Under the pieces are notes generated by a model that made no database searches, was not told where the DNA came from, and was given only the letters and a program-made list of their open reading frames with translations. Shown here piece after piece: positions 1 to 42,559 of a DNA stretch of 64,000 bases. This stretch comes from Heterostelium album PN500 (Eukaryota > Evosea > Eumycetozoa > Acytosteliales > Acytosteliaceae): contig NW_008805076.1 of assembly GCF_000004825.1 (NCBI RefSeq), positions 990,920 to 1,054,919 of the forward strand, read 5' to 3'. Position 1 is the first letter of the stretch. Each line of letters begins with the position of its first letter. The translations under genes and the position numbers were made by a program.

Positions 1-3000
1 GATTCGATTGTTGTGAGTCAACTGTTACTGAAACTGTTTTCTCACCTTCAGAACTGGATTGAGGAGCAACACATACAATCTGTTCATGATTCCATGTGAA
101 AACATTACAATCTTTACCATCGATGCTGACTTTATCTTGGACATTTCCAAAATTGGTTCCTTTGATAGTGACGATTGTATTTCTTGCCATTCTTCCTTTC
201 TCTGGTGTTATTTCACGTATATTTGGTTCTAAAGTTAGAAATAGGAACAAGTTATCATGTTAATAAAAATATACTATAATAATTATTATTATTGTTGATT
301 GTAAAATAATTTTAACATACTGTCATAAGAGAAATAGGTATTTTGTTGATTTAATTGACCTCCAACTTTGATTTCAATTGATTTCTTGACACCAGTACCA
401 ATTGGAATCTTACATTGTAATGAGTTCGAATCTTTCCAAGTCAGTGATTGACATGATTTACCACCAATCTTTACATAATTGTTTTGATCATTGGTTGGTG
501 TTGATGATGCCAAATCAGAAGGTACAAAGTTTGATCCAGTGATCATCAAAGTCAAATCACCATTGGTTGGTCCCGAATAATCTGAATCACTTGGTAGTGA
601 AGGTGCTATTATTATAGTTTGATATTAATATTAGTATTAATATCAATGTTTAATGAATGTTTAAAAATATTTAAACTTACGATTATAATCGATATGTTGA
701 TTGTTTGAATGTGTTTGTTTTCCAATGTAAAGTTTAAATGGAACATTCTTTCCAATACCAATTGGGATTTTACATGAAAGTTGATTGTGATCGATCCAAT
801 CGTAATCTGTGCATTTCTTTCCATTGACTTCGATATAACTCGAGGTTGGTCCACCATCTTGAACATCTTTTGGAACAAAGTTCTCTCCTTTGATTGTGAT
901 CGTTGATCCAGATGTATCACTGTTTGGTATTTCTGTAATCTCTGGTATTTTGTAATTGAATTTAGCTTTGACACTTTGTGAATCGATCGATATCGATAAT
1001 GGTTGGTCTTTTCCGATACCTTTGAGGAATTTGCATGATATTTGTGTTTCATCGATGAATGTGATATCATCACAAAGTTTATCATTGATGGTGAGATTGG
1101 AACCTTTTGGATCAACATCTTTCGGAACGAAATTGGTTCCTTTGATTGTGATCAATTCACCATGCGTCAAAACATTTGGAATCTCTTCAATGCTTGGTTC
1201 ATTGTATTTGAATATGTTTTCAGTTGTATTTTGATTGGCGATTCCAACTTCCAACGATATATTTTTACCAATTCCAGGTGGTGGAGTGCATTCGATTCTG
1301 TCTTGATCAATCCAATTGATATTTTTACATTCAACGTCATCGATTAAAACTTTAGAGTCTTTTGGATCAACATCTTTCGGAACAAAGTTGACACCATGAA
1401 TTGTAATGACTGATCCTCCTTTGGTATCACTTGAATCTACACTCTTAATGTGAGGTTCAGAATAAGAGAAATTCTTGACTCCATCGATATTCGATTGATT
1501 TCCAATGAAAACGGTTAATGTCAAGTTGGCACCAATTCCTGGGTGGAGAGTGCATGTAAATGAAGTTGAGTTTGTCCAAGTTGGTGTTGTGCAATTGTTT
1601 TCTCCGATTGTTAAATAACTGGTGTCGAAATCTGATTGTTTCAAAAACGTTTGATTTTTGGGAATGAAATTGAAACCATTGATTGTAATTTCATTGTTGG
1701 CACTTGTATTCAAATTTCCAACAATCGCCGAGATATTTGGTCCTAAAATATAAAATAAAATATAGAAAGAGAGTGTATAAAGTTAATATCTATCAAATTT
1801 ATAAGAATAATATTATATAAACTTTTAAAACTTACTTTCATATGAGAAATTAAATAGAATTTGATTTGGTTCAATGTTTAACATTGATTGATTTCCCAAG
1901 AAGAGAGAAATGCTAAGATTGGCACCAACACCAGCATAGATCTCTGTGTGTACCAATGATGAATTCACCCATGTGATATTCTTAAAATGGTAGTGACCAA
2001 TGGAAATATTACTTCTGTCAAATCCACGTTCATATTCGATAAGTGGAACTTCATAATAATCCTCAGATTCTTCATCATAAACGAATTTTTGTTCTTTTGG
2101 TGAGAAATTCGTTCCAAAAATTGAGAGTGTTACTGAACCATCAGTTCCAGATGTATTGTTGGTTACTTTGGAGATTAATGGTCTTGGGAAAACGAGTGAG
2201 TCTGTTGAATTTCCAGATAGTTGTTGAAGAACTTCAAGAATGACAATGTTGTCATTTCCAACACCTGTTGGTAGTCTACACTTAATACAATCAAATTCCA
2301 TTGATCTGAATTCTTTATCTATTTCAATGTATGGATCGAAATCTTTATCTGGTGTTTGTTGTGTTGGTACTTCAATTGCTTGGCCATCTTCATTTGAATA
2401 TAACTTGTTTGGAAAACAAACACTTTCTTCATCTACAATACACTCATAAAGTTGATAATGATCATTGGACATATTAACTGATGGAACAAACTCGGTCATT
2501 GTTGCAAGATTGAGACCAACAACCCAGAAATTACCTCCATATGATGTGTTGACGAATGGTTCTTGAACAACTTGAAGAATAGTTGGTGCAATATAATCGA
2601 AAGGTAAAAAGTTGGATTGTTGTGAATCGACATGAATACTGAATTTAAGATTCTTTCCACCACCAATGACAGATTTACAAGTAATCTTGTTGTCACTGTC
2701 ACGAATGAGACTATTGCAGGTCAAACTCGAGATTGGTGATTCATCAATTGTCAGAGATTCATCACCAAATTGAGAACCAGTGATAATTATATCTTCTTCT
2801 CCATTGGTTTTCCACATTACTTTGGAGATTGAATCGATCTTTGGTGCTTTATGATCAATAAAGTCAAGTTGTTCATAAATTTGACCACCAACTTCAATTG
2901 AAATATTTTTGTTCAATCCAGATCCTCTGGTTTTAAAAGTAATATATTCTTTTGAATCTTGGATACCACCAGAGATCAATGCGATTGAGACTCCACCAAT

Positions 3001-6000
3001 CTTTAACTTAATGTCGTTTACTGTTGATGTCATGGAGAAAAGATTGCTTCCATAAAGTGTAACCTCTGAACCTACTGTGTTGAATTGTTCAGATGGTCGT
3101 GGAGAACTGATTGTTGGTGCATTGTATTGGAATTGGAATGTGTTTGGAAGTCTAAGTAAAGGTTTTTTTGGTGTAGTGATTGAAATCAATTTGGTTCCAA
3201 GTCCAGATGGAATTGTACATTGCTTTTGGTGGAGATCATCTTCATTGGTATAGTCACAGTCTTCGAGGTAAATGTCACCAAACTTTACTAGGAGATATTG
3301 AAGATTTCGACCTTTGATGATGAGTGTTGTTTCATCTTTGGTGTCACCTGTCAATGGTCCAACGGATAGAATGAATGGATCAACTGGACAACTTTGAAGA
3401 AGTTCTCCACTTTCAAACTCAACTTTTGTTGAATGAGTAAAGCTACAGATCTTTCCATCAAACATGACAATTCCAAAACCTTCTTCTGGTTCATTCTCCA
3501 ATGGAATAAAATAGGTTGAAAGGTGATCTCCATAGGTGATAACTTTTTCTGTTTGAGTTAAAACACCAATCAATTCCGTGATAATATCAAGACCAAGTGG
3601 AGTGATCGAAGAGAATGGATAACCTTGGTGCATTGGAATATTACAGTAATATCTATCTCGAATACCAATTTGATACTTCAAATATTGTGAACTACGTAAA
3701 TATCTGTTCAACGGAGATTCATAAATCGCCTTCCAAATAACATTGGATGATAATTGATGTTCATCAAATTGAACCCATTTTCCAACAGTTTCATAAAGTT
3801 TACTGAGTGAAAGTGTTTGGAAATTCGATTCACAAACTTGAAATCTTCCTAATATCTCATAAATTGGGTCTGTTGGTGGATTTGTTGGACTCTGAAAATT
3901 AAAAAGTTTGATTGTTAGAATGATATTCATAAAATAATAAATTAAATATTACTTACATCCAAACAGAAATTACATTTGTAAATATAATTTAAATTCATGA
4001 CACGATCTAAGTTGTCAAAAATCATTGTTGTGTCGATGACAGAACTCTGAATCTTTGACTTTAGAACATCGATGACTGTGAATATATCGGATGGAACATT
4101 CTCTTTGATGATCTCTTTGATCAGTGGGAATGATAAGGAATCTAATCCACTGGTAAAGCTATCTTGGTAGAATATCTCATCTTGATCAGCTTGGTTATCG
4201 ATGATATCCCAAAGGAATGATGCAATGAGTCCTGAAGAACGAGCAACTGGTTGAACAACTCCATTCTTTTGATAGATTTCAAGTGAAACAGGTGAATCAC
4301 AATGAATGATTTGCTTTATATCTGATCTCAGATATGGGAAAATATCCTGTTAATTTTGAAAAATAAAATATTATAATAAAAATAAATAAATAAAAATAAA
4401 TAAATAAAAATAAATAAATAAAATAAATTTAAAAATTAAATGAAAAATAAAAAAATAAGAAAGAAATAATCAAAATAAATTAAATAAAAAATAAATAAAT
4501 AAAATAAAAAAATAGTTAGTAAGATATTTTGATTTAACGATCAATCAAAAAAATATAAAAAGAGCGGGGTTTTTCATTCTTACCTGTTTGAATTTGAGCG
4601 CGAAAGAATAAATCAATGCTTTTCTTATTGCCAATTGTTCATCTGATTCTTTTTGTTGAATTCGATCATTAATATTTAGAGAATCTAATTTATAGTTATT
4701 ATTTAATGATGTTATATAGTGATAAGAATATGAAAGGAACAAATCATCAATACACAAGTTATCGATTTGTATTCCATAGTTGTTGTTATCGTTGATTATT
4801 GCTGTGTGTTGATTATTAATTTTAACTGTAATTTGTGGTTGTGTGAAAGTGCTATCAGTGTTGACAATTGGATACAAATCTACCAACATTTGTAAAGTAC
4901 GATAAAACATTAATACATTTGTATCGTAAGTACTGACAGTCTCTGGTGAAAATAGATTGTCTTGATACTTTAGAATGGTAGAGTATACAATGTATTCAGA
5001 GTCTTCAGAATAGTATTGAATACTAATACCTCTCTTATTATCTTTCAGATACAATCTAATCTCAGGAGTGTAATACTTGACAATGTCAACAGAAGCAAAT
5101 TCATTGGTTTGATATTCAAAGATACCACAATCACCCTGACATAACGGATCGGAAGCAGGCACAACAGTCAATTCAGTATCAGGAAGACTTGAATCGAATG
5201 GAGTACGAGAAAGGAGTGAACCGATATTGGTACTGACAGTGTTGACTTGGAATCTAACTTGACCTTTTCCATTGAAATCACTCTGCAGTTTAGTCTCACA
5301 ATCAAGTGACGAGCAAATACTTGATCTAAGTTTGTAGGCAGTATTGATTAGGAAAGTATTGGCAGCACTCGAGGTAACAACACACACAAACGAGGCAGGT
5401 GATGAAGACAAAGTTGGATGGTAATCACCAAGACATATTCTGAGTTTGTCAAATGCAAATCCTGGTGCCTCGACATCTGATATCCAATGTCTACTCTCCA
5501 AAGGTATGTTGTATTGATTTGAAAAATCAATTGGCAATCTATTCTCGACCAAACTACTAAAACTAGCAGTGGCAACGGCATCTCTCTAATTAATACAATA
5601 GAATCATTAGTATTTATATTTATATTAACTTTGTTACAGTGTAATTCAATATCATCTATTTACTTACAGGAACGGTAGTGTATCCAAAGAAAGATTGCCA
5701 AGCACTTGATTGTAAACCACTGTGGATTTCAATAGTTGGGCTGATGTACTGTTTGGCTGAGGAATCAACGATTGATCCTTCAAATATATTATTCAAGAAT
5801 CTTAGATTTCTTTCACTGAATGTGTTAAAATAAATCTTTGGAACCAATGGCACTAAAGTATTAAAAAATGCAGTCATCTCTAAATCGCTAAGGCCGATAA
5901 GAGTATGACATAAAAATGAATGACCGATATTCAAATTAATCGATTGTTCATCAGCCAAATGGTAGTCTTGAGGGAACCACTTTCCTGGATAGCTTGAAGG

Positions 6001-6450
6001 CATTGCAACCTCATTATTAGTGGGCAAAATAGCAGGAAAACCAGGCATAGTGTGTTTTACGTGAATTCCATTTCCAGAACTGGTAAGTGCAACAAATCCT
6101 TTGGATGTACCATACTGATCAGGTTGCCACTGGCCATTTAGAGGTGTCTCTTGATTTCCATTTTTGTCACCAAACTGCCAAGGCTTGTCATTGAACATCA
6201 AAACTTCATTGTTTTTGATACTCTCAAGCGTTCTTCCAAGTGCACTTTCAGCCAGAGTGATATCACTAAGAAAAATTACATTATGCTCGTCCATGTACAA
6301 ATATGCATTGGTTAATGGTAGTTTTTTGATATACCACCATTGCACATTATTGTTGTCAGGTGACAAACAACTTGGAATAGCTGTAATAAAAGAAATATTA
6401 TTACAAATAAATATAATTAATATATAAATATATAAATATTTATTCTTCAT
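1..6450 (-). CDS. Secreted DNase II-like / IPT-TIG repeat protein (3' end outside window)
   Basis: Large spliced gene; about 1,935 residues lie in the window. Predicted exons: 6450-5668, 5585-4584, 4346-3957, 3891-1836, 1742-681, 605-321 and 228 to beyond base 1, all with GT..AG borders that keep frame. The start at 6450 opens a typical signal peptide (MKNKYLYIYILIIFI...). Residues about 25-300 match the DNase II fold: WWYIKKLP, YLYMDE, GRTLESI, MFNDKP, SKGFVAL, HVKHTMPGFP, GHSFLCHTL, and LGDYHP in place of the usual GDMNR. DNase II enzymes need two HxK motifs; here the first reads GTSKG and the second ESRHW, so both catalytic histidines appear lost. A helical linker follows, then at least ten IPT/TIG repeats (GxNFVPKDV, CxxPxGIGKN), several with one phase-1 exon per repeat. 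Probably a secreted or surface binding protein. It is divergent from, and paralogous to, the gene at 7691-19501. Confidence 0.85.
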
Positions 6451-7690
6451 ATTTTTTTTAAATAATAGTATTATTATTAATTTTAATAAAATTTTACATG
6501 TGATTAGATACCCAGATGAAACTCGTCCAATCAATCACTCGTTTCAAACTAATAAAAAAATTTATTAATTTTTTTTTGAAAAACTATTATACAAAAGCTA
6601 GATATTTAGCGATCACGGTTTGTCTCTCAACGGAATCATTTTACTTCTGATGGCCTAATGTTAAATACAAGTGCAAAGTGTAAACTAGCTCTTGGGGCCT
6701 GTAACCCAAATAAAATAAATACACCAACCCTTGGTTTTTTTATTTTGGAGTAATTCTTTTTTTTAAAAGATCCTTGTAGTTCTTTTAATCCAAATCATAG
6801 TGTATATTAACGATATACAGAGGGAAGATAGTTTTGATTGGTAACCTCAAACATGAATTAATTACTTAACGCCGAAAAAAAAATTGTAATTTTGTACGTA
6901 AGTTTGCATTATTATGGATTCCTAAAAAAAGTTTTATGAAAATTTTGATGCGAGTTTTGTAACACATAACGAGTGAAAATGTGCCTGTTTTTAGTGGGGG
7001 TCCAAAATTTTTTAATGTGATAACTGTACTTCCCTCATTTGCAAACTTTGTGAAAAACTGTGAAACAACATGGTTCAAAGTATAGAGTAAAAACGTTTTG
7101 ACTTATAGAAGGATGTGAAGGAGAGATTATATTAAGATTTCGTGTAATGACAACACAAGAATTAAGATCTTTCTGATGTTGTTGTTTTTCACAGAGTTTA
7201 CAAATGAGGGAAGTAAAGTTGGCTCATTAAAACTTCGTCAATCAATATGCAAATAAAAATTTGATATTTTTATGATAAACGAAAGTAAAATGATCTTGAA
7301 AAAAATCTTTAATCATTCTATAACGAGATGAAAAAGGATGCATATTGATCAATTTTTTTTTTTTGTTTACAAAAACGAGATTCCTAAAAATCTTGAATCT
7401 TTTTTTGCGATCAAACCTTTACCACAGAGCATACTTTTTTGGTTTTTTGATTGATCCCTCATTCTTTTCATTAACCGAATAAACCTTTGCTACAACTTTT
7501 AGGGAATGGGATTCAATTCAATACTATTATAATCTTATTTTTCACTGGTTAATCGCCTGAATCAATTTGGTCAATAGTTAACCAATCACTCGTTTTAAAA
7601 ATAAAATAGTTTTTTAATCATTTACAAATCTTCATTATATAATAATATATAAAAATAATTCAAATAATTCTATATATTATAAAATAAAAG
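6451..7690. other. Divergent intergenic region between the two DNase II-IPT genes
   Basis: About 1.2 kb without a convincing gene, holding the 5' flanks of both neighbours. It contains an imperfect inverted repeat (arms 7023-7059 and 7183-7219, about four mismatches) sharing the core CAAATGAGGGAAGTA. A 70-codon ORF on the minus strand spans the left arm, but its composition is not protein-like. Confidence 0.6.
7023..7219. repeat. Imperfect inverted repeat, about 37-bp arms
   Basis: The reverse complement of 7023-7059 matches 7183-7219 with about four differences. The loop is about 120 bp. It could be a decayed foldback element or a transcribed hairpin in the shared promoter region. No target duplication was seen. 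Confidence 0.55.
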
Positions 7691-10600
7691 ATGAAAGAAA
7701 TAATAATATTATTATTTTTATCATTTATCGTTATTGTTTGGACAACTGATCAGGTAAAATTCGAATTTGATAATGAAATCTATCAAGATGGTTTTAGGGT
7801 ATCGATCAAACTTCCAGATGGATATTCTTTTGACAAGGATAAATTCAAGGTTACTGCTGAAGATGGAACTAATGTTAAACCATGTACTTTTGTTGAAAGA
7901 GTTGGTACTAATGTAGTTTACAAAATTCCAAATCTGAGAGTAGTATTTGACATTGATGATGATGATGATGATGGTAGTGATGGTAGTGATGGTATGGTTG
8001 GTAGTGATGGTAGTGATGGTAGTGATGATCGTCCTAAGTCAACCCGTCCACTCAAACGAGGTAAATCATCAATTACCAATAGTTACTCTCTTGTCATCTT
8101 GGATCAATCAACAATGAACCCACCACAATCCTTTTTATTGCAATTCACAAGTATGTATATATCTTATTATTCAAAAATGTGTTGAAAATGATTTTCTAAT
8201 ATTTCAAATTTTTTACTCAATAAAGATCCTTCTATCATTTATGATGATCTTGTGATTCTAGAAGGAACAAAAACCTTCAAGTTTAAAGGTTATTCTCTCC
8301 ATTTTCCAAACTATGCTCCAAAGATAACTCTAGTCCGTATTCCCCAAGGTGTACCAGTTGTCAAGTTTGAATGTTTAATCACGGCAGTCATTTCAAAAGA
8401 TGAAATCGAATGTACCACCACTCAAGTAGTTCCATTTGGTAGTTATTTTTTTAATTTTGAATATGCTGATTCGCACAACAGAAATTTTCCATTCACAATC
8501 ACAGCACTTCGTAAGTTCACCAAATTTGATTAAATTATTTTTTTTAATTTTAATTTTAATTATTTTTTTTTATAATTTTTTAGCAAAAATCATCCCAACA
8601 ACAGAACTCTCTTTAAACTCACATCTATCATATGATGACATTATTATCAAGACTGATTCATTCATTTCAAGTTTTAAAAAAGATCAAGTTGAAGTGAACT
8701 TTATTAATGAAGATCAATCTAAAACTGTAAAGTGTACTGTTAAAGAACTTTTGAAAGATGATAATCAAATCAAATGCTCTTTAGATGTCCCAACCAACTT
8801 CCCTTCAGGTATTGTCAATGCTTACGTCAATGTACTTGGTAAAACAATCACTGGTTCACAAAAGTATAACTTTTTTGGTAATTATCAAATTGTTTTATAG
8901 ATTAAAGAATCTTTTAAATGATCGCTTTATTTACAACTCTGTGTTTCTCTCTTCTTTTTTATTTATTAGTTCCGAGTTTCCCAAGTATGGGACTTGATAT
9001 TTCGGGTCCTATGACAGGAGATGTAAAGTTTGTGATTGATGGTGAGCATCTTGACCCATCTGGATCTGTTTTCATTGGTACAAGTGATATAAAACTGGTG
9101 TGTCAATATAAAGCAGCTGTACCACCATCGACATGGGACCAATACGAATGTCTTTCACACTTGTATTTCCCAGATGCTACAAATCCACCTGTTTGGGAGT
9201 ATAAAATCAATACAAAGATGTATGGAAGAGACTACCCAACTGAATATACCTATATATTTAATTGTATGTAAAGTTTAGATTATCTTTCTTAAAGAGTCAA
9301 TATCTAATTTAATCTTTTAATTTCATACAGATCCTAAATTTGATTTGACACCAACTCAATCGATTAAGATTATCAATATCGGACATTCAATAAGTACACT
9401 CAAAGGTAAAAACTTGGAAATCATAAACAAGATTACATTGAATGATATCGCTTTGAATACCAATGACTTCCAGATTGTAGACAATACTCTTTCAATTGAA
9501 ATTGTTAGTACTGCATTGGTTGGTGATCAAACAATCAAATTCTTTGTTGAGAAGAGTCTAACCTCGAATGATGGAACTGTCGTTGAACATTCATATCAAG
9601 TTAAACCCGATATTGAAATGAAATTACTTGGTAACTATCATCAATCAGTTATAAATATTATTGATAAATTGATTATTAATGATCTATAATAGCACCGACA
9701 ATCAAGGCCAAAGATGATAATACACTTTCATTTTACTTCTTGGATGACGCAACCAGTAAATCAATTATCTTTGATCTCACAGATTTCCCAGAGAAACAAG
9801 ATTATTTGATTAAAATTGGAACCTACAATAAAATTGGAACCTACAACTTGAATTGTGCTCCAGAAACAACTTCTGCACCAACTCCAATTAAATGTAGTGG
9901 TATCCAAGATTTATCATTGAGCAATCTACCAACTGAATTCCCGATTTCAATTGTATTTGATCCAAACAATGCCAAACCAGGTTTTATCAAGACAATTGAT
10001 TCCACTCTCAAATTCAAATACACTGGTAACTATCATATAATCATTTATTTATTATTGTTTCACAAAACTAATTTATTTCAATTCAGGACTTGTATTTGAT
10101 GTTCAAAGTCTCTTTGCTAATGATATCCAAAGTACTTATGGAGGATACTTTAGAATGCTAAATGGAGAGGAACTTAATCGTATTGAATCTCTTTCAATTG
10201 GTGATGCACCACTACCTATTGACCATGTTCTAACTATCAGAAGAGATGGAATTGCCGACGATTTATTTGTAACTGGAAGAGTATTAAACTATGACACTGC
10301 AACCCAGAGAATGAGAATGCTCATCGATAAACAAACTGTTAATTATTCAGAAGATCTATTCACGGTGTCGTTCGTTGGTGTTTATAGTAGCCATACTGCA
10401 AATACAGTTACAATGTTTGAGGTAGATCCTCTTACTCATGAAGAGCTTATAACCAACTATGTTGTAGATGGTATATATGTTGGTCATGTCGATTCGATTT
10501 GCACTATTGTGGTCAATGGAGATTTCGACTACAATACATTTACTCTCACAATTGGAAATGAGGAGTATGAAATCGACAAAGCCAAGAGAGTAAAACCAGT

Positions 10601-13600
10601 CTACTCAATCACATCAAGTACTCTTGGATTAGATCCAACAACAAACACATTCCCACCCAATCCACCAAGAGAATTCATTGAAATCGAAGTGATTGGTGTC
10701 ACTTTTACCAACAATGAAATTACTTTCCCTTCAGAACATTCATTCACAGTGAGTGCTGATCTTGAGAATATCAAAGAAAGTGGATGCCTTCTCATCAATC
10801 CAACAGCTCCACTCAAACAATCGATGATATGTTCACTCCCAGAACCAAAGACCACTGATTTAAACAAAAGAGCACTTCGATACACCGTTGGAGGCAGAAC
10901 AATCACCAATCAAATTCTTCAATTTAAAGTTCCGAGAATCATCAATGCAACACCATTATTTGGTTCAAAATATAATGATGATCGATTGACGATTTCCTAT
11001 ACCAAAGGTGACTCAACAGCTGTTCAAATCAGACTTGTTAAACTTTCTGGTGTGACGATTGCTCTCACTTCTTGTCACCCCGAGACTGCACTTGGTAATA
11101 ATCAGTTCCAAATGTCATGTAACAAAACAGCAGGTCAAGCAAGTGGAAAATATTTGAGTTCGGTAAGTATTCGATCCAACTCTATCCGCTTATTCATTGG
11201 AGAGAATTTATTTCAATAACTATGGTAACTATCAAAATGATGATCAATCTTTTAGTTTTTTTAAACTAATATCATTTCTTTTTTTGAATAGGTATTTCAT
11301 GCTTGGGACAAGCAAATGGACCAATTAATCAATATAATAATAAACCAGTTTCATGGTGGTTCACTTATAAATTACAACACACAGCCAAATATTTTAACCA
11401 AGATACAACCAACAGTTATTTATACACCGATGAATCAATGGATAGTATGATTATGAGGGATCATCTCACACCAGAAGGAGATTATGTAAAAAATCCAGAT
11501 AAAAATTATAATATCGACCTAAACCAAAAACTTTCACCACTTGCAGCCACCTTTAAACAATTGAGTACAACCAACTCCTACTATTACGTGTATGTATATT
11601 CATTACCAAAACAAGCTATAAATGATTCAAAATTATTAATGAATGAGAAATCTTTTGAACTCATCCAGTTGGAACGACCAAACAGGTAAAAGAACAGAAA
11701 CAGGTGGAAGAGGAGACATAGATTCTGCATCTCTATTTGCTCATTCCAAAGGATTTGTTATTTATGATATCGAGGATGGTGTTGCCAAAGGAATTCATGT
11801 CACACATACAAATCCACTTTTTCCCACAAAAAAAACAGATTTCTATGAACATTTCACTCAAACCGGTGTTAATCTATACAAGTGGCTTGGTAAAGCAGAT
11901 CCAGGACAGAATTTCTTTTGTTACAACTTTGAAGATCTCTCTGATGTTATTGATACAATGGTGAAAAACAAGGTATATATGAGTAACCACCAAAATGGAC
12001 AAAGAATACCAGCGAACACAGTCATGTGTCGTGGAAATATTCCATGTGTTGACCTCTATAGAATCACCAATGTACCTACATTTAATACTAGATCTCAATT
12101 CTATACAACTGTAAGCAATTCATTTGAATGTATATTTATTTTTTTTATATTAAATAATCAATTCTTCAACTTTAGCAATGTACCAATAGAATACAAGCAA
12201 TCTATGATCAAAGATGGACAGAAATCGAGGATGACAGGGATGATGACTTCATGGAAAGGTTACAAGATAATGATTTGACTGATATTGAAATTGAAGAATT
12301 AAATGATGATTTTCCAATTCAAAGATATCAAAATTTACAGGATCATTGCTATTGGATGATTGAACATAGAATCAAAGGTCTTCAAAAACCATTAATTTCC
12401 AAAGTCATCAAATCATTCGCTAAAACTAATATTGAAATTCCAGCTTTGGAAAAAAATATTTTGTCAATAAGAGGTAGACATAATTATAAATTCATCAATC
12501 CATTATTACCTTGGGAGCTAGTCCAAAAACCGGGAACACCACAATTTGACGGTGTTGATATTTATGAAGTTATTGCTTCAGTTTACTATAAAAGAAAATT
12601 CTTTGTCGCCACTTATCACAGTAAGTACTACATTCCAAGTCAATACAATGCAAAAGAGCTAACAATAAATATCCATTCCGATTTTAGTGGGAGGTGCTCA
12701 GATACCTTTGTACCAAGTTGCAACCCTTGCTCAAGTTGGTTTTCTTCGTAAGTTGACCAAAAATTATAAATCACTTTTACGATGCAATCATTAACACTTT
12801 AAATAGAATTAACCTCTGAACTCTTGGTAAGAAGAGATGCACTTGGAACTCCTGTCACACCAGCAAATGATTGGCCAAACCTATCTTTTTCAGGATATAA
12901 ACAAGATCACTCGAAATTTATGATCGACATGTTCCCATATGATGTTCCAAATCCAACAATTTGTTTTGGAGAATCAAATCGACATTCACTCCAGGTATGA
13001 CTGATTCTTTTAATTAAACTGATATTAAGTTCACTAACATTAATAATTTAATGATGTAGCCACATAGAGGTGGAGGTTGCACATGTTTTGAAGACGAAAA
13101 ACTTTCACGTGAGATGCATAGTTTTATTAGATCATATTCAGTCAAAATTGCAGGTACAGATGAGAGTGAAAACTATAAACATCGTAGTAGAGTTATTTCA
13201 CATTTAGTTGATCAAATAATTAGGATCAATGTTCCAAACTTTGATGGTCAAGTTCAACTTTTAGTCAAGAAAGGAAACGGACATCACTTTATCCCTGAAA
13301 TTCCTTTACAAACACTCACAATCACCGCGGCCACCCCAACTCACGATATCACGAGACAAATCAGAATTGTAAGAACAACATCACCATATACAACAGATGC
13401 TCAGAACACAAATGAAGAGGAAGTCTCCCAACTTAAACCATATGTATCAAGTTACCTATGGACACCAATAACACCACTCCAATCCAGGTCATTGAAGACT
13501 TATAGTGAACCAACACATTTAACAGTTGAATACAAAGCATTAGATGTTACTGGAGCAACCATCACTTCAATCAATACACTTCATACATGTACCAACGATC

Positions 13601-16600
13601 GAACAGCTCAGATATCAAATGAGGTCAGACAATGTCTTGATCAAAAGCTGAACCTCAATTATCACCTATACTGGAGCCAACGCAGTCTTTGTTGACAATC
13701 AACCAACTCAATTAAACGGAAATAGTGATGCAAGACGTTCCAATCCCCAAGCAAACACAAGAATATATGATTTGACTGAAACAACCAATATTGAATTTAG
13801 AACAATTGCTTTCACCAAAAAGTTCCAAACTGCTATGGGAGATACATCAAGATACAATATCATCATTGATCCAACACTCAGCACAGCATCTCAATATAGA
13901 TATCCATATATTTATTCACAAACTTCGAATATTCCAGATGATTTAGTATTGGTTTACTATCTATTGACTCAAAGATTAATGAGTGTTACTAGATACCCAA
14001 CGATTTCAGACAACAATGATCAATTGGGAAATGCTGTATTATTGGTTGCATCGAAATTCATTCATATGAGAATGATAACTCCAACCAACATTGCTACTCC
14101 TCCACTTCCAACACCAGATCTTTTAGGCATTACTTTTACAATTCCAATTAAATCCAAGAATACAATCAACACACTACCGTAAGTTAATGATGAATTTAAT
14201 TGAACTTTCAATTTAATCCAAATTCTAACCAAATCTTTTCAATTAGTGATGTAAATGATAATGAATTTACCAAAGTTACCTATTTGTTCTGGAAATTGAT
14301 GTCTCAAAGCACCAATCCTTTGACATATGCTCTACTTTTCTCAGATCTATCAACATTCCAACTTACATCAGCAGTCGATGTTTATGATAAGTTCAAAACT
14401 AGAATTGTTCCAGCAGATCCAGCAATTGAGAATTTATTCAGACCCGCTACCAACAATAATAACAATAATAATGGAGGATCTTCAAATTCACGTTCATTCA
14501 AACTTCAATCTCAAATCAAACATGCAAGTTCATCACTTTTAGTTTCACTTTTACAATCGAATCATTTCAAATCAAATGAAATATTTGAATTGGATACTCT
14601 TGAAACTGAACAATTGACAGAATCATTGGATATGTGGCTTGAAAACAGAATGATCTCGACACTCCTCGGATCATCACGTTCCAACGAAGTCAAATATCTC
14701 CAAGAAAGATTTAGATTCTTTTTGACAAATGAAATATGTCCACAATATTCACCAACCTCAATTACACATTATGAAATTTGCAGACCAATGTCGATTGTTG
14801 AATTCACCAACATTATCAAACACACACAATTATCTACAAAATCAATCAAATATTCTTTTGGCGAGCTCGAATATTATTATTCAGCATATCCATCAACTTT
14901 CCAATCGATCTTTTTGGATAAGACAACATTTGATGGTATTTTAATTGCCACAATCAATTCGAAACTATGTGATTTCAAACTTGTCAAACAAACAGAACTC
15001 AGCAATATTGAATCAATCGATATCTGTAGAATTCCAATAATCAACAACATCATACCAACATCGAATAGTATTATTACGATCAGTGGAACTCATTTCGATT
15101 CATCCACCCAAGTTACAATTTCCAATGGATATCGATGCATTTCAAAACAACTTCTCAACAGTACAAACATGCTTTGTGAATTACCAAAACTAAACGATAT
15201 CAATAATATTATTAAACTTGATAATTCAATCAATGATCATTCATTCTATGTCACCAACAAATGTCCAATCATCAATGAAGTTGATGTAGGAACAACAAAC
15301 AAACTTCTTTCAGTATCAGGTGGTGATATCGTTGAAATTAAAGGAATGTTCTTTGGTTCATCATTCTCTGATATTCAAGCATTTATTGGTCACCAAGAGT
15401 GTTTCATCATTAAAATTCAAGAGTCTTCAATCACCTGTATAACACCTTCATACACTGGTCAGAATATCCCGATTGGAATTCAACTTAGAAATTGTCCATT
15501 TGTTCAATCAATCGATAATAATCAAAGAGTATCATATGAATCACCAGTTATCCTCTCGGTTATTCCAAGCGACCCATTGTTAACATTCCCAGGAGATTCT
15601 ATCTTGATCAATGGAAAATCATTTGGAACAATTGAAAACACCAAACTATTCATCTTTGACAAAGAATATCCATTTGAATTATTCAGTTCCGAAACATTAA
15701 GAATCACTATTCCAGATGATATGTTGATTCCAACAAAACAAATTCCATTAAAAGTTAAAGTTGGAAATTCGATTGCCACCTCATCATTCAGTTTATCAAG
15801 AGGTTACTTCATCCCAACAACATCACCGATGATTGTTCCAACGAAAGGATGGTATGTAATTTTTGATGGTGATTCATTTGGAATATCATCGAGTGAACTT
15901 GACAATATCAAATTGAGTAATGGTGTCAAGCTTATTGGATGTCACCGTTATCAATTCTTTATTGAATGTTTGGTTCCACCTGGAATTGGTGCAGATTATT
16001 CAGTTAGTGCAACAATTAACTCAATCAATATTGTTTCACCATTGAAATATATTTCCTATGAAGTACCAACCATTGGAAACTATGTAAACTCTGGAAATAC
16101 ATTTACAATCTTTGGTAAAAACTTTGTTCCAAAAGGAGTTGCACCAGCAACATCCAATATCTACTTTAGTAATAATCAAATTGATTGGAAGCCATGTTTA
16201 AGTCCAGTTTTTAGCGATGAAAGTACAATCAATTGCAATGAAATGCCTGCACTTAGTACCAACCAAATTTATGCTTATGTTGACATTGGAAATCAAAAAT
16301 CAAACACAATTATGGCAAAAGTTACGTTTGTACATGGTTATGTTTATTTGGACAAGAATTTTAATAATGTTAGAGATTCTAGTGAACAAGTATTCACAAA
16401 CTGCAAAGTTACCTTGTCTGTTAACTCTGTTGCCAAATATGTTGCATCTTGTGATTCCAATGGATACTATTCATTTGCATCACTTGATGCACCTGCAACT
16501 TATGAAATTACATCAACTATCAACAGTCCAACCAAATATTTCGTTGTGGTTTCTTCACATTTCTTTGATATTCTCAAAGATCAAATCATCCAAAGAGATA

Positions 16601-19501
16601 TTAGTGTTATTGAAGACACAGGATACAATTGTTTCGCAACATTAACAACTTTTCAATCTTCAACAATGGTATTACCATATGGTGAGTATGACCTTTTATC
16701 ATATGAAATGTGTCAATCACCACCCAGTACTTGTAAATTCCAGGTTTCCTCAATTGTAACTATTTAATTCAACAAAATTTTATTAAATTTGAAAACACTA
16801 ATTTATTTTTTCTATAAAGACTACCAATGGTAATGATTGTGCAGCTACTCTCACTGGAACCAAACTATCTATCTCATATTGTAAGTAATAACATGTCCAT
16901 TTAGGATATTGATAGAATTATACTAACCAAAAATTATTTAATAGCATCTATTGTCTCATTGAATCTAAAATTAGATTACTTGGTCCCACCAAATTATACT
17001 ACTACTGTGTACCCTGATTCATTAGCTTTTGCAGAGATTAAATTTACCTACCTTCAAAAGGATTACTTATTCAAACAATACAATAGGAATGGTCAAATTT
17101 TATTTAAATTACCAGTTGGAATCACTGGTGTCGTCAATATCCAAACTCAGAATCAAAATACATGGCCAATCATCAACAATTTTGAAGTTCTATCACCAAC
17201 AACAAAGACTCTCCCAATGTACTCTGGAATATTCCCAACAGTTAACTTTTATGAAAAACCAAACAAATTGGGTTCATCACTCACATTACCTGTGGGATAT
17301 TACACTCAGGGAGATCTCACTCATATTGGATGGTCCAAAATTGTTCAATCATTGGTTGTCCCAGAGAAATGTGTTCTCAATACCAATCTTATTTTTAATC
17401 CAGGATATTCCTCTGTGAATATACAACTTACTAAATTTGATCTTTCTTATCAAAGTAAATACCGATAAATCAAAAATCCCAAAAATATTTTATATTCTAA
17501 TAATCTTTATATTTATAAACAGCAATGTTTGATAGAATTAGTTTTGCAGGTGGATACCATAATATTCTTAATCAATATCCAAATCCCTCACTTATTAAAT
17601 ACTACATCGGAAGTAAGTAATCGACATATATTAATTATCTTTAAATCGATTTACTAATATTCAATTTACAAATAGGTGAAAATTTGAAATGTACTCAAAC
17701 CCAATGTTACTTCAAATCTGATATTGGTACCAAAACACTTACCATCAAGTACAACGATGCTCAAATATCAAAAACATATTCCATTCAATACACATCACCA
17801 TATGGCGATGAAGGACAATATCCAACCCTCGATTCACAGTCTGCAACTAAAAATGTTTTGAAATTGAATGAAAATCTCCAAATTCAATCTGGATCATCTA
17901 TTACCTCACAAATATCATTGACTTCAAGTGGTTTGACAATTTCATCGATGGGAACCACTCTTTTCTCTGTGTCATCATCTCTTTACCTTTCAAGCAGTTG
18001 CAATGGAGAGGACCGACTTTTCATTCAACCCGATGGTAATCTCTGCATTAACAATGTTATCTCTGATAAATCATGTCCCAGATGGTGTCTCTCTAGTCAC
18101 CACTCTAGAGCTAGATACCTCAAATTAATTCCATATGGTGTTGTTCTCCAAAATGCCAATGGACAAATTGTTTGGTTCAAATATCATTCTTCTTATATCA
18201 ACAATCTTGCAGGTACCGAGTTTAAGAAAAACTTTGTCAATCCATTGGTTTATGCACCAAACTTCCTTGACAATACAGGATCAAATAATGTACTCTATTC
18301 TTGGCAGTCGGAGTACCTTCCAAGTGTTCTCACCAATGGTGTCCACTATTTGATAATGGACAAAAACCAATGTCAACTCAAGATATATGACAACGTCCAG
18401 ATAAGTGGTAATCCAATATACACATCAGATTATACCAACATATTATTACCTAATGTTCCAACAACAAATTGCAAGTTGGTTTTTGGTACTGATGGAAATC
18501 TTTGTGCACAAATACCTAGTGGACAAGTTTCATGGTGTACATATTCGCATAAGCTTGATGGAAGATACTTTGGATTGGCACCTGCCTTTACAACAACTCA
18601 AATTGGTTTCTATGTCCTCAATTCCAAAGGTAGAATGGTGTACGGTAGATTCACATCACTACAAGAAAGATCAAACCTGAAGATGATCCCAGGAAGTTTC
18701 ATTGTTGCAAACAATCAAGAGTATTATCCAGAGACTGAAGATAGAATTATCAATGAAGGAGGTGTTTTGACAAATGGAAAATCATATATCAGATTGGAGA
18801 GTAACGGTCAACTTGCTGTATATGACTCGAATCCATATAATGCAGTTACACAACCAATAGTACTCTGGAGATCAGATTTACCAGCTGTTGCACCGACAAG
18901 ACCATTCTATGCTCAACTTGAATCCACTGGTATTGTTGTGGTTGGTGCCAACGTTCGTTACTTAGCAGGCAAACTAAATGTTGCAAGTGCAACCGCATTC
19001 CAAATGAATTGGATGGGTTCCACTCGTTCTGATGATTGGGGATTCTCTTTCATCAAGGATACAAAGATTATTGATGGATACTTGTCAAAACCTGGAGTAT
19101 GGTCAAACTACCAACAAATCGAAAATAATCCTCTAAAGAATTTTACAAATGCATACTTCGGTTTCAATTGGAATGACCAAACTGGAATTATTGCAGCAAA
19201 AGACTTTAAAACAGGTGAAGTTCTATGGACAAGTCCAACCACCAACATACCACCAAAACTATGTGGAAGATATTATGCTGATTTTGGTATTTACTTTACT
19301 CCAGCTATGCCTAGTCTTTGTGTGTATTCTTCTACTGTAGCTAGTTCGTGTACATTTCTATCGTATTGGTGTCAAAAGTTCCCACTTACAACCTACTACA
19401 TTCAAGCACCATCTGGTGTTCCTGAATTCATTGCTACCAACATCGATGGAAGAATCACTTGGACTGCAAACTCTATAAAATATTTACAACTCACTAAATA
19501 A
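7691..19501 (+). CDS. Giant IPT/TIG - DNase II-like - IPT - SdrD-like - lectin-like secreted protein (two frame breaks)
   Basis: About 3,550 codons. Predicted exons: 7691-8150, 8226-8510, 8584-8877, 8970-9263, 9331-9630, 9693-10025, 10087-11224, 11292-11589, 11669-12110, 12176-12620, 12688-12747, 12807-12994, 13060-14178, 14247-16743, 16820-16880, 16945-17454, 17523-17612 and 17676-19501. A signal peptide is followed by about six IPT-like modules, each ending at a phase-1 intron, and a Gly-Ser-Asp run near 7970. A DNase II domain lies at 11.3-13.1 kb: WWFTYKL, YLYTDES, AHSKGFV, HVTHTNPLFP, DHSKFMID (HSK at 12908-12916), ICFGESNRH, RGGGC. Both HxK motifs are present, so nuclease activity is plausible. 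Then come a helical linker, more IPT repeats, an SdrD/Cna-B-like module (GYVYLDKNFNNVRD, about 16.3 kb) and three B-lectin-like repeats (QPDGNLC, GTDGNLC, ESNGQLAVYD). The frame shifts by one base between 11167 and 11216 and again between 13652 and 13692. It is therefore either a recent pseudogene or affected by sequence errors. Confidence 0.8.
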
Positions 19502-39490: not shown

Positions 39491-39930
39491 TGTTACTATT
39501 ATAATAGCTGTTATTATCTATAATAATATTGCTGTGGATTAGATGAGCAAATAAAAATAATAATAATATTATAATAATATTTTGTGATAATCAATCACCT
39601 GATCCCTATGCACATTTTTTTATTTTTATTTTTTATTTAATGGGCACCCAGAAATTTCGAACCAGTTTAAAATGACTTCAGATTACATTTCATACCAGCT
39701 GTGATTGAAAATTCAACCACCTTTTTTTTTGTTTTTCTTTTGAATTAAATATTTAATTATTTTTTTGCACTAATATTTTAAGTTTAAACTTATAATAATA
39801 ATATTTATATATTTTCATTGTTTGTTCTTAGGACAAAATAAATTTCATTAATTTAAAATATTTCAATTATTTTTATATTATATTTCTAAACTATAATATA
39901 AATATTATATATTTTTTTACTAAAATAAAA
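39491..39930. other. Intergenic region, AT-rich
   Basis: AT-rich, with a slightly GC-richer patch near 39640-39720. That patch contains TTCGAACC, a T-loop-like string, but no tRNA can be folded around it. No other feature was seen. Confidence 0.5.
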
Positions 39931-41388
39931 ATGGAAGATGTAATTATACATATGGATATCGATGACAAATATGATAGAACAAATTTAGGCGAAGTTGTTG
40001 TTCCATCAGAGGATTTTAAAAAACTCAAGGAGGAGATTGTTATCCTTAGAAATCAAAACATACAATTGAACCTTATTCTTAATACAAATACAAATATGTT
40101 TAACTGTAGTAAGTGTAAACATTTTGCCGAATTCCACAAAAATGAACACAGCTTTAGTGAGTTGTCAAAAGAATCTACTAAAAAATGGACAGAGAAGTTT
40201 CCCAGTATTTTTAAGAACAAGGAAATACCATTTTGCAACAATGAAACTCACCAAAACCTTCAAAAGCAACTGGAGTCACAAAGTGATTTATCAAATATGC
40301 AACAAAATAACTACAATAAACAAATGGAAATGCAACAAAATAACTACAACCAACAAATGGAAATGCAACAAAATAACTTCAACAAACAACTAGAAGTGCA
40401 AGAAAGAGATTTATCAATCAAGCATCAAAATAATGTCATCAATTTTATGAGAAAGTTCTATGCTCATCAAGCAAGTTTTAAATTTGACGAGTACATTCCT
40501 CAGGCAATATCAGACCCCAAAGAAAATCAACCAAGTTTTATTGATCCAAATCTTGTCTCGTTAGCTCTTGCCTTGAACCAAAAAATTGCTAAATATGAAA
40601 GTTTGACTGCTGGATTTTTAGAAAAGGACAATATATTAAAAGAAATCTCTGATTATATTAAAAGTAAGAATGCTAATACAACAACAACTCATAATGATAA
40701 TGATAATAATTATAATGATAATATTAATTATAATAACAATTGCAATAGCCATAGCAATAATCATAACAATAATCATAACATTAACCATAATAATAATAAT
40801 AACAATAGTTATAACAATAATGGCAAACAGATTGTCAACTACAATCTAAATAATAATATTGAATCTCACAATGGAGCACAACAACAATCAACTTCAAATT
40901 CTATGCTAGCTTTTAGAGGTAGTAGAAAGTCGCACAAGATAGATATTTATCTTGTAAAGGCATCTAATGATGATAGAAATATTATCTCTAAATTCTTCTA
41001 TGACAATTTGCATCATAGTTACAATATTACTTTCAAGAATGAATCTCAATACAATGAATCTATTTCAGACACGAATAAAATCAATCCAAGCATTATATGT
41101 TATGTTCTGGCCACTGGTTCCTCTAGAATTACCTATGAAGAGTACAATGATAAGCTTGACCATTTCAAAAACAAACCAAATTCGATACTGTTGTTGACTT
41201 TGATTAGATTTGGAACGAATGCTGGAGTCCCAACACTGGAAATCAAAGATATCGATTACATTGTAATCAACACCACAATAGTTCCAGGTGGTAATCAAAA
41301 AGTTGTCAATTCAAACAATCAATTGACAAAAGATGCTGTCACCAAAATTGAAATGTGCATCAAATCCTTGTATGATAAACCAAAGTAA
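39931..41388 (+). CDS. Zinc-finger-like N-domain plus alpha/beta C-domain protein (long paralogue)
   Basis: Single-exon ORF of 485 residues. The N-terminus (residues about 1-110) has a CxxC-H-H pattern (FNCSKCKHFAEFHKNEH), suggesting zinc binding. Three near-perfect 11-residue repeats follow (MQQNNYNKQME, about residues 124-156), then a conserved block (FDEYIPQAISDPKENQPS ... LTAGFLEKDNILKEISDYI), a long Asn/His-rich linker, and a C-terminal domain of about 150 residues with alternating strands and helices (KIDIYLVKASNDDRN, PSIICYVLATGSSRI, SILLLTLIRFGTN, DIDYIVINTTIVP). The C-domain resembles Rossmann-like folds such as TIR or SEFIR in pattern only. The N-terminal half is shared with the next gene. 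Confidence 0.75.
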   Translation: MEDVIIHMDIDDKYDRTNLGEVVVPSEDFKKLKEEIVILRNQNIQLNLILNTNTNMFNCSKCKHFAEFHKNEHSFSELSKESTKKWTEKFPSIFKNKEIPFCNNETHQNLQKQLESQSDLSNMQQNNYNKQMEMQQNNYNQQMEMQQNNFNKQLEVQERDLSIKHQNNVINFMRKFYAHQASFKFDEYIPQAISDPKENQPSFIDPNLVSLALALNQKIAKYESLTAGFLEKDNILKEISDYIKSKNANTTTTHNDNDNNYNDNINYNNNCNSHSNNHNNNHNINHNNNNNNSYNNNGKQIVNYNLNNNIESHNGAQQQSTSNSMLAFRGSRKSHKIDIYLVKASNDDRNIISKFFYDNLHHSYNITFKNESQYNESISDTNKINPSIICYVLATGSSRITYEEYNDKLDHFKNKPNSILLLTLIRFGTNAGVPTLEIKDIDYIVINTTIVPGGNQKVVNSNNQLTKDAVTKIEMCIKSLYDKPK

Positions 41389-41884
41389 AGAATCAATCAA
41401 TGTATAAATGAATTAAATTCATTTATTTCTTCTCTATTTCAAAAAAACAAATAAATAAATAATATCTTTTCCTGAACTACCACTGAATGAATTACAGCTA
41501 TCAAGATAGATTCTCTTTGTTTTTGGTCATTTTTAAAATCTTAGTTAAATACTCCCCACTTAGTTTAAATAAAAAAAAATATTTCAAAGAAGTCACATTA
41601 ATAAATGTTATTGAGTTGTTTTAATTAACAATGTTGGGATAAAAACATTGTTTTTTTTTTATATAATTTTATCTATCATATGTGTTTTTAGTGCTAAGAT
41701 ATGACAATCAAACTTAAAACTTTAGGTTTATTATTAAATTTTTAGTTACTAATAAACCTAAAGTTTTAAGTTTGAACTTTAAATAATAAATTTGAATCTA
41801 TTTATTTGTTATTAAAGACCATATTTAAATATCATTCAAATTCTTATTTTTTATATCATTTTAAATTTTTCTAACCTTTGTAAA
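41389..41884. other. Spacer between paralogues, with hairpins
   Basis: Contains a 10-bp inverted repeat with a 3-nt loop right after the upstream gene (about 41407-41429), a 7-bp CAATGTT/AACATTG pair (about 41627-41649) and the 25-bp perfect inverted repeat listed separately. No coding potential. Confidence 0.55.
41709..41774. repeat. Perfect 25-bp inverted repeat (hairpin)
   Basis: Arms 41709-41733 and 41750-41774 are exact reverse complements (left arm begins CAAACTTAAAACTTTAGG), with a 16-nt loop. A perfect stem of this length is unlikely by chance even in AT-rich DNA. It could form an RNA hairpin upstream of the short paralogue or be a relic of a small foldback element. Confidence 0.85.
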
Positions 41885-42559
41885 ATGGAAGTTGATAATA
41901 ATTATAGTAGAACAGATTCTGGAGATATAATTATACCTTTTGAGGAATTCCAAAAACTCAGAAATTCCAAAGTTCTTCTAGACAAATCAAACAAATACAT
42001 GAAGGAGAATGAAATCCTTATAAATCAAATCAAACAATTAAACCTTATTCTTAATACAAATATGAATATGTTTAACTGTAGTAAGTGTAAACATTTTGCC
42101 GAATTCCACAAGAATGAACACAACTTCAGTGGATTAACAAAAGAATCTACTAAGAAATGGATGGAAAAGTTTCCCAATATTTTTAAGAACAAGGAAGTAC
42201 CATTTTGCACCGATGAAACTCATCAAAACCTACATAAACAACTTGAAGAACAAAGAGATTTATCTATCAGGTACCAAACTAATTACATCAAAATTCAAGA
42301 TGATATAAAGAAACTTTTCTATAATTATATAGATAATTTTAAATTTGACGAGCACATTCCTCTGGCAATATCAGACCCCAAAGAAAATCAACCAAGCTAT
42401 GTTCATCCAAATCTTGTCTCGTTAACTCTTGACTTGAACCAAAAAATTGCTAAATATGAAAGTTTGACTGCTGGATTTTTAGAAAAGGACAATATATTAA
42501 AAGAGATCTCTGATTATATTAGAAGTATTAATGCTAATAGAACAACAATCTATAAATAA
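41885..42559 (+). CDS. Zinc-finger-like N-domain protein (short paralogue)
   Basis: Single-exon ORF of 224 residues. From the CxxC-H-H block (FNCSKCKHFAEFHKNEHNF) to the end (LTAGFLEKDNILKEISDYI) it is closely similar to residues about 40-250 of the gene at 39931. It lacks the 11-residue repeats, the poly-Asn linker and the whole C-terminal alpha/beta domain, ending in a stop where the linker would start. This is a tandem duplicate that lost, or never gained, the C-terminal domain. A 14-bp inverted repeat follows the stop. Confidence 0.72.
   Translation: MEVDNNYSRTDSGDIIIPFEEFQKLRNSKVLLDKSNKYMKENEILINQIKQLNLILNTNMNMFNCSKCKHFAEFHKNEHNFSGLTKESTKKWMEKFPNIFKNKEVPFCTDETHQNLHKQLEEQRDLSIRYQTNYIKIQDDIKKLFYNYIDNFKFDEHIPLAISDPKENQPSYVHPNLVSLTLDLNQKIAKYESLTAGFLEKDNILKEISDYIRSINANRTTIYK

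Follow-up and report, generated by a model that had tools for sequence, protein, structure and literature searches.

At one end of the window, by which we mean the whole 64,000-nucleotide stretch of Heterostelium album PN500 DNA that was analysed, two giant genes stand head to head, each joining a DNase II domain to IPT/TIG repeats. One belongs to a class of loci that has lost the catalytic HxK motif, and the other to a class that keeps it. The best reading of these loci, held tentatively and on the strength of sequence comparison, is that they encode secreted enzyme/pseudoenzyme pairs arranged like tgrB1/tgrC1, of which the window would carry a recently duplicated and now damaged copy. Motif loss against motif retention, the place of this pair as one of eight and the damage in this copy were out of sight for the initial annotation.

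The head-to-head orientation described in the initial annotation is borne out, with starts 1,240 bp apart, and Pfam searches of open frames and exons return DNase_II and TIG matches in both genes. The layout is as follows.

1..6450, minus strand: gene 1, part inside the window, HxK-less class (script exon model, GT-AG introns)
6451..7690, no strand: intergenic region of 1,240 bp between the two start codons (sequence)
7691..19501, plus strand: gene 2, HxK-keeping class, many exons, frame broken here (ORFs and C3 sister layout)

Gene 1 is composed of the following parts.

6450-5668, 5585-4584, 4346-3957, 3891-1836, 1742-681, 605-321 and 228-1, then leftward, minus strand: exons (script model)
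6376..6450, minus strand: hydrophobic leader, first ~25 residues, putative signal peptide (sequence)
5330..6375, approximate, minus strand: DNase II-like domain without HxK, GTSKG / ESRHWIS (PF03265, alignment, motif scan)
3380..5329, approximate, minus strand: linker, ~500 residues, common to the HxK-less class (hhalign)
1..3379, minus strand: TIG array, extending to C15:990336 left of the window (PF01833)

The hydrophobic leader directly precedes the DNase II domain. The domain matches PF03265 with an E value of 2.6e-22 (79.9 bits against a cut-off of 23) and aligns with the genome's ordinary DNase II with HxK missing; HxK is lacking in both halves, the motif scan finding GTSKG and ESRHWIS instead. 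DNase II is indeed joined to Ig-like repeats of the surface type, but for gene 1, which has lost the catalytic motifs, the label "DNase II-like" is not to be taken as meaning a nuclease. The many IPT/TIG repeats are found as PF01833 matches in both genes, gene 1 having four stretches in one exon, four more, and three further ones of which one lies at the left edge of the window and two beyond it. The linker of gene 1 is homologous to those of its class (hhalign probability 99.5%, 488 columns). The similar helical linker ascribed to both genes finds no support, as hhalign detects no homology between the two (probability 0.15%, the gene 2 side being two sequences). Nor does gene 1 lie whole within 1..19501, since more open frames follow beyond the left edge, and with them an ORF that encodes the cellulose-binding domain CBM49. 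That ORF (C15:984.4-985.0k) holds two CBM49 stretches (PF09478, E 1.8e-13, 51 bits against a cut-off of 23.4) beyond the gene 1 stop of this copy; it would belong to gene 1 through putative exons between the stop and CBM49. CBM49 sits at the matching place beside all three copies of the pair on C15 (the window copy, W, and copies A and B).

Gene 2 runs in the other direction.

7691..11224, plus strand: leader and N-terminal region without Pfam TIG match (ORF scans, C3 sister comparison)
11292..13130, approximate, plus strand: DNase II over several exons, AHSKG, DHSKF and GESNRH (PF03265, motifs)
13131..15050, approximate, plus strand: linker, no relation to the gene 1 linker detected by hhalign (sequence)
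15051..16330, plus strand: TIG repeats, four stretches in one exon (PF01833, 1.5e-22)
16339..16541, plus strand: SdrD_B-like domain, under the Pfam cut-off (PF17210, 9.5e-6)
17645..19501, plus strand: C-terminal tail, weakly lectin-like (conserved in sister genes)

The DNase II follows some 3.5 kb of other coding sequence (7691-11224), and a Pfam scan of seven ORFs in this N-terminal region finds no TIG. The DNase II call, clear in gene 1, holds in gene 2 exon by exon: one exon passes the PF03265 cut-off (E 4.1e-8, 33.2 bits), and the exon of the second motif, taken alone, falls under it (13.9 bits). HxK is present in both halves, as AHSKG and DHSKF, in a reading frame that is broken in the window copy; the C3 sister of gene 2, whose exon model reads through, likewise has both motifs. 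A first automatic model of gene 2, with its start placed far downstream, was dropped. Of the lectin-like tail, the conservation in sister genes stands and the lectin identity is weak: there is no Pfam match, the NCBIfam lectin-like bacteriocin match (6.1e-4) is far under its cut-off, and single-sequence fold prediction reaches a pLDDT of 35. An extracellular or phagosomal location, as proposed at the outset, would be in keeping with the TIG arrays, with the leaders, which are hydrophobic, and with the CBM49 domains beyond gene 1.

The genome of H. album PN500 has 65 PF03265 matches, and its DNase II-like loci comprise 15 HxK-less and 27 HxK-keeping ones (42 classed) and 11 unclassed, the last including ordinary DNase II and fragments. 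Among the TIG matches listed for the genome (150, from 729 candidates), one falls within 10 kb of 15/15 HxK-less, 23/27 HxK-keeping and 1/11 unclassed loci. Gene 2 of the window is one of the four HxK-keeping loci without a listed TIG, yet it has Pfam TIGs. Of the 150 listed TIG matches, 137 have a DNase II-like locus within 10 kb, and such neighbourhoods cover ~3.4% of the genome, so the association is not chance. The resulting proteins are about 1,100 to 3,500 amino acids long. In the HxK-less class, motif 1 is absent from all 15 loci and motif 2 from all nine loci read; of the fetched loci of the HxK-keeping class, 24/26 show motif 1 and 25/26 show motif 2, and the GDxNR motif is mostly retained. 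Such loss is unusual, since bacterial relatives keep motif 1 (23/23) and motif 2 (22/23, the one miss being a locus end that cuts the motif). TIG is found beside none of the 23, as searched up to 3 kb on each side with a small HMM from three gene 1 TIGs, and viral contigs yielded no relative. A 27-row tree groups the 13 HxK-keeping rows into a single clade (support 100/99). Its 13 HxK-less rows come together on one side with weak support (44/65, and 48% of bootstraps), and the tree has long branches.

Selection acts differently on the two classes. The HxK-less DNase II domain is under purifying selection, with a dN/dS of 0.26 over four duplicate sets (different from 1, p 1e-6). The HxK-keeping domain evolves fast, at a dN/dS of 1.21 over five sets that does not significantly exceed 1 (p 0.30); the TIG parts of HxK-keeping genes give 0.44. 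The classes differ by Fisher test (1.9e-6), a comparison in which low GC may distort dS, an effect that the internal contrasts lessen without removing. Within the HxK-keeping pool, the short piece from C12 yields 0.58 when taken by itself. No stop interrupts the domain alignments of C9-C28, C25 and C3-C23, despite 28, 43 and 42 amino-acid differences. Comparisons that are not independent were kept out of the pool, namely C15 W-B (0.90 in the HxK-keeping gene, with a high-dS patch that is perhaps gene conversion, and 0.26 in the HxK-less gene) and the HxK-keeping C9-C14 (1.53). The older comparison C12:1063k-1006k (0.29) was also not pooled, and C16-C24, with no alignment at 70% identity, stands outside the pool. 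Recurrence in C9-C14 of the sites changed in C9-C28 was rejected as a signal, being mostly the same changes on the common C9 side; three different residues occur at sites 92, 195 and 380 only.

The classes also meet in the genome in a particular way. Among classed loci, head-to-head neighbours within 20 kb form eight pairs, all eight with one member of each class, although the pairs are partly related via duplication and represent about three lineages. Four of the eight share an element in the space between the genes.

7090..7320, no strand: intergenic element between head-to-head pairs (genome matches; fold z -7.3)
7010-7058 / 7184-7232, no strand: inverted-repeat arms of the intergenic region (sequence)

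Each of the longer matches of the element elsewhere in the genome falls in the gap of a head-to-head pair (C15 copy A, C3:17.7-18.1k and C23:9.7k), and it is common even to C15 and C3:17k, two pairs that have diverged far; it was not found in the other four pairs. A single weak miRNA match in Rfam, far under the gathering score, was rejected.

These observations bear on a possible alternative with an appreciable, if minority, claim: that the loci encode an expanded set of nucleases of the ordinary digestive or defence kind, each working alone in phagosomes or outside the cell, the head-to-head order being left over from local duplication and the HxK-less proteins being adhesive or DNA-binding with a task of their own. 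Many loci lack a head-to-head neighbour within 20 kb (7/15 HxK-less and 19/27 HxK-keeping), as this alternative would have it. Around the HxK-less locus C12:1006k the HxK-keeping neighbour lies tail to tail, and at C25:424k, also HxK-less, it points in the same direction 19 kb off. "Deoxyribonuclease II activity" is moreover among the GO terms common to dictyostelid lineage-specific expansions (PMC8535579). Solitary nucleases would account poorly, however, for the mixing of classes in 8/8 head-to-head pairs, for the intergenic element common to the diverged pairs C15 and C3:17k, and for the opposite selection regimes of the two classes.

Under the favoured reading of enzyme/pseudoenzyme pairs, the gene 2 class would supply a secreted acid-type nuclease whose DNase II fold is borne on TIG repeats. 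The gene 1 class would supply its secreted partner, in which a catalytically dead DNase II fold, also on TIG repeats, has been preserved by selection and which in this lineage probably bears CBM49 domains near its far end. A common control region would cause both to be made together, and they may work as partners, in phagosomes or in the extracellular matrix, through TIG contacts, pairing of the DNase II domains, or both. The dead partner might anchor, present or restrain the live one, and the live nuclease head would keep changing because it meets a changing counterpart, for which a microbial inhibitor, a DNA-coating protein or a protein of another strain are candidates.

Two further readings, each improbable, give recognition the leading part. 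The first is a nuclease-based recognition or conflict system in which a conserved, catalytically dead relative would bind a fast-diversifying secreted TIG nuclease and license or neutralise it, so that strains or microbes would be told apart by the nuclease that escapes. The two genes of each pair, lying back to back, would be driven from one control region, and some pairs have the common hairpin element. The second, about equally doubtful, is an allorecognition or kin-recognition pair like tgrB1/tgrC1, with the DNase II folds serving as recognition modules and not as enzymes. TIG repeats, divergent pairs and damaged recent copies recall tgrB/tgrC as described in PMC12324515, and one fast-changing domain would also fit. 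Tgr proteins are transmembrane according to that source, and here hydropathy scans of the ORFs of L009-L034, P0001 and P0002, of the window and L011/L034 pieces and of some C-termini show no convincing helix. Motif 2, kept in 25/26 loci, would not be needed for recognition alone, and one partner is conserved, which also argues against this reading.

The window copy itself is damaged in both genes. An in-frame stop that copies A and B lack interrupts gene 1 near C15:990304, slightly beyond the left edge of the window, and gene 2 has two frame changes of its own.

11160..11163, plus strand: 4-nt frame change in gene 2, window copy alone (three-copy alignment)
13642..13652, plus strand: net 2-nt frame change in gene 2, window copy alone (three-copy alignment)

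One-base differences in gene 2 may be assembly errors, and the 4-nt difference is of another type. A supposed lesion common to the three copies at 11590-11670 was withdrawn, the C3 sister gene placing an intron there. Because both of its genes are interrupted, the window copy may do nothing; the pair C3:2647k and C3:2653k, by contrast, looks intact. That the whole is pseudogene debris, a decaying duplication whose differences reflect relaxed constraint only, is very unlikely: frame changes do occur in all three C15 copies of gene 2, beside the stop in gene 1, but gene 1 indels in exons are all multiples of three with a dN/dS of 0.23-0.32 across the 6.4 kb up to the stop, gene 2 gives 0.24-0.25 at 14250-16065, and the C3 sister gene reads through in its exon model, so that debris is likely to describe at most the window copy of gene 2.

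It would be unusual for an enzyme gene and a pseudoenzyme gene to form pairs under opposite selection, and such an arrangement would be easy to test. If the favoured reading is true, social amoebae would possess a large extracellular nuclease system, which would be relevant to the handling of bacterial DNA or of extracellular-trap DNA, DNA nets having been described in D. discoideum (PMC4773522), or of each other. It may also lie behind some of the expansion in DNase II annotation (PMC8535579) and some of the 110 IPT/TIG proteins given for P. pallidum in Table 4 of PMC4931340.

The literature searched holds no description of a TIG-DNase II architecture. A protein search with residues 1-900 of gene 1 gave none scored at E <= 1e-3 among 5,211 candidates. 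Outside the Heterostelium genome, the sole dictyostelid protein of this architecture to surface is SAMD00019534_069820 (P0001) of Acytostelium subglobosum, which has TIG and DNase II Pfam hits, both HxK motifs and 41% identity over 97% of the queried stretch. PPL_09790 (P0002) of H. album PN500 is a database protein with the same two Pfam hits, and the two are named merely hypothetical protein or IPT/TIG domain-containing protein. Among solved structures the only DNase II matched is that of Burkholderia (5i3e/5unb, E 0.0022 and 0.2), other weak matches being unrelated.

Three known systems offer comparison. With DNase II (PF03265; human DNase II alpha) the loci share the Pfam domain, and the HxK-keeping class retains both motifs; ordinary DNase II stands alone at about 350 amino acids (a 360-residue ORF in the PN500 genome), whereas here the domain lies inside TIG proteins and, in one class of the two, is without the catalytic motif. 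The tgrB/tgrC genes of Dictyostelium are paired, diverging TIG genes with a common promoter and many shortened or deleted pair copies (PMC12324515), and the present loci resemble TgrB1/TgrC1 in their TIG repeats, diverging pairs and damaged extra copies; the Tgr proteins, however, are described as transmembrane, where the pieces scanned here show no convincing helix, and the available portion of that source does not mention DNase II. In Trichinella, PMC4148230 reports 125 DNase II-like genes, with around half of the products excretory-secretory and the HKD motif in plancitoxin-1 alone. TIG domains and divergent pairs go unmentioned in the available portion of that report.

The window spans 990920-1054919 of contig C15, up to its right end, in a genome of 32.9 Mb and 39 contigs. 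The following features are used below.

Gene 1: start 6450, leftwards, (-) strand; hydrophobic leader, DNase II, linker of ~500 residues, TIG repeats
Intergenic element: 7090-7320; inverted-repeat arms 7010-7058 and 7184-7232
Gene 2: start 7691, rightwards, (+) strand; leader, ~3.5 kb coding, DNase II, linker, TIG, weak SdrD_B, tail
Copy A of the pair: C15:489-507k
Copy B of the pair: C15:943-960k

The DNase II domain that the initial annotation had proposed for gene 1 is borne out by HMM search (PF03265, 2.6e-22). Gene 1 extends beyond the left edge of the window. Past that edge, SdrD_B-like matches occur in open frames, and one ORF contains two CBM49 stretches. CBM49 stands at the equivalent position beside all three C15 copies, and the ORF is a putative far end of gene 1. 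In gene 2, a Pfam scan finds no TIG in the ~3.5 kb of coding sequence preceding DNase II, which is itself split over several exons. Four TIG stretches follow the linker, then the weak SdrD_B match and a tail of 618 residues.

Among dictyostelid lineage-specific families, an expansion of DNase II activity appears as a GO term in PMC8535579, and Table 4 of PMC4931340 gives 110 IPT/TIG proteins for P. pallidum. The literature matches listed, covering few subscription papers, hold no description of a DNase II-TIG fusion, of two classes or of pairs; database entries carrying both Pfam domains exist.

TIG and DNase II occur together in this genome. With 150 of 729 candidates scored, 137 of the 150 TIG matches listed fall within 10 kb of one of 53 DNase II-like loci, ~3.4% of the genome. 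These loci comprise 15 of an HxK-less class, 27 of an HxK-keeping class (named after the catalytic HxK motifs) and 11 unclassed, class being assigned by the better-matching of two query proteins and not by motif. Only one of the 11 unclassed loci has TIG nearby among the matches listed. Short unclassed matches, most of them to the profile's C-terminal part, cluster at C27:317k-362k and C9:28k-31k; they run in same-strand rows, with no TIG nearby among the matches listed.

Ordinary DNase II has one HxK motif per half, according to PMC9208542 and PMC4148230. Both are present in an ordinary stand-alone DNase II of this genome (L001, C3:2986732-2987703, 360-aa ORF), and both are retained, by eye, in the Acytostelium protein P0001 (SAMD00019534_069820). 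Bacterial relatives keep motif 1 in 23/23 cases and motif 2 in 22/23. The HxK-less class is missing motif 1 at all 15 loci and motif 2 at the nine read. Among 26 of the 27 HxK-keeping loci, 24 show motif 1 and 25 show motif 2; motif 1 was not recovered at C12:1022k, and neither motif at C3:998k, where stops break the frame. A tree of the N-terminal half covers 13 of the 15 HxK-less rows, 12 of the 27 HxK-keeping rows, P0001 and ordinary DNase II. The HxK-keeping rows group there as a single supported clade, the HxK-less rows occupy one side with weak support, and the tree has several long branches. Judged from sequence, gene 1 is classified as a predicted DNase II-like pseudoenzyme rather than a DNase, and neither gene is placed among the Tgr proteins. 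Most HxK-less members (gene 1 and relatives such as loci L014 and L050) have H-I/V-K in a neighbouring strand (IHIKHS, IHVKHT), the K of which is mostly replaced in the HxK-keeping members seen. The HxK-less database protein P0002 (PPL_09790 of Heterostelium album PN500; 3,226 aa) carries a very long TIG array before DNase II, whereas gene 1 begins with DNase II.

Ten neighbour pairs of classed loci lie <20 kb apart.

Head to head (eight): C15 (three), C3:2647k/2653k, C3:17k/21k, C23 (an 11,158-bp contig), C12 (two; only directions certain)
Tail to tail (one): C12:1006k/1021k
Same direction (one): C25:404k/424k

Each of the eight head-to-head pairs joins one HxK-less and one HxK-keeping gene, with DNase II parts 3.7 to 8.2 kb apart. 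The eight would represent about three lineages and not independent events, since the C15 pairs are related to C3:2647k, C3:17k to C23, and the C12 pairs to each other. At this spacing, a head-to-head partner is missing for seven of the 15 HxK-less loci.

Selection differs between the classes in recent duplicates, with the DNase II domain pooled per class. The HxK-less domain has a dN/dS of 0.26 (27.0 non-synonymous changes/3,032 sites; 28.0 synonymous/826), with four sets at 0.20, 0.35, 0.14 and 0.49. The HxK-keeping domain has 1.21 (177.6/4,153; 38.4/1,082), with five sets at 1.38, 0.98, 0.58 (a short 82-codon piece), 0.92 and 2.04. The two classes differ (Fisher 1.9e-6), and the HxK-keeping domain lies above the TIG parts of the same genes (0.44; Fisher 5.4e-5); its excess over 1 falls short of significance (p 0.30). 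Aligned domains of C9-C28, C25 and C3-C23 have 28, 43 and 42 amino-acid differences, many altering charge, with zero stops. At sites 92, 195 and 380, C9, C28 and C14 each have a different residue. Because these many differences are stop-free and the HxK motifs are kept, the pattern looks more like diversification than decay, short of proof. In gene 2, the segment 10112-12990, which takes in DNase II and the part before it, is enriched in non-synonymous change relative to 13063-16065 (Fisher 8e-7 to 8e-21, three comparisons).

The C15 copies match the window at 93-98% identity in matches >1.7 kb. In gene 1 up to the stop codon, exonic indels between copies are multiples of three only and dN/dS is 0.23-0.32; an in-frame stop near C15:990304 occurs in the window copy only. 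Gene 2 of the window is disrupted near 11160 by a 4-nt frame change and near 13645 by one of net 2 nt; copies A and B have other frame changes, and copy B a stop in the tail. An exon finder built to seek open frames reads gene 2 of the older fourth pair, C3:2647k/2653k, through ~3,500 residues, and the same kind of finder recovers only the part of the window's gene 2 from 13835 onward. Given these lesions and the read-through C3 sister, the window pair is most likely a recently duplicated, damaged version of a pair surviving elsewhere; assembly error is a possible source of single-base differences. Against copy B (L009), segment 11690-12080 in the gene 2 DNase II has a dS of ~0.20, above its neighbours, perhaps through gene conversion from another family member.

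Between the genes, element 7090-7320 has four matches besides itself and its own inverted arm, each >100 nt and each between head-to-head pairs: C15 copy A, C3:17.7-18.1k (two tandem copies) and C23:9.7k. The genome search did not find it at C15 copy B, C3:2647k or either C12 pair. It is common mainly to intergenic regions of other head-to-head pairs, even where the encoded proteins share only about one third of their residues. The element coincides in part with an inverted repeat of 49 nt (88%). Its predicted fold is far more stable than those of shuffled sequences (z -7.3), as would be expected of any inverted repeat. A regulatory element and gene conversion are possible explanations, as is a small mobile element, since the whole intergenic region as query gives extra short matches at C3:1402k and C17:888k.

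Elsewhere in the window, ORFs at 60472-61533 and 62863-64000 resemble, by eye, reverse transcriptase and another retrotransposon part. Two similar adjacent genes at 39832-41388 and 41816-42559, with common stretches such as MFNCSKCKHFAEFHKNEH, are likely a tandem duplication.

From their leaders, both products would be secreted, and CBM49 together with the weakly lectin-like tail suggests contact with a matrix. We think that the products of a pair act jointly, extracellularly or in phagosomes. Most simply, the predicted-dead relative would bind the enzyme, its substrate or its opponent, since selection keeps it beside a predicted live, fast-changing enzyme. Tgr proteins are transmembrane, whereas hydropathy scans gave no convincing helix in the pieces of the window family scanned. 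The likeness to Dictyostelium tgrB1/tgrC1 is in the paired diverging arrangement; those genes, as described in PMC12324515, diverge from a common promoter and have many damaged copies.
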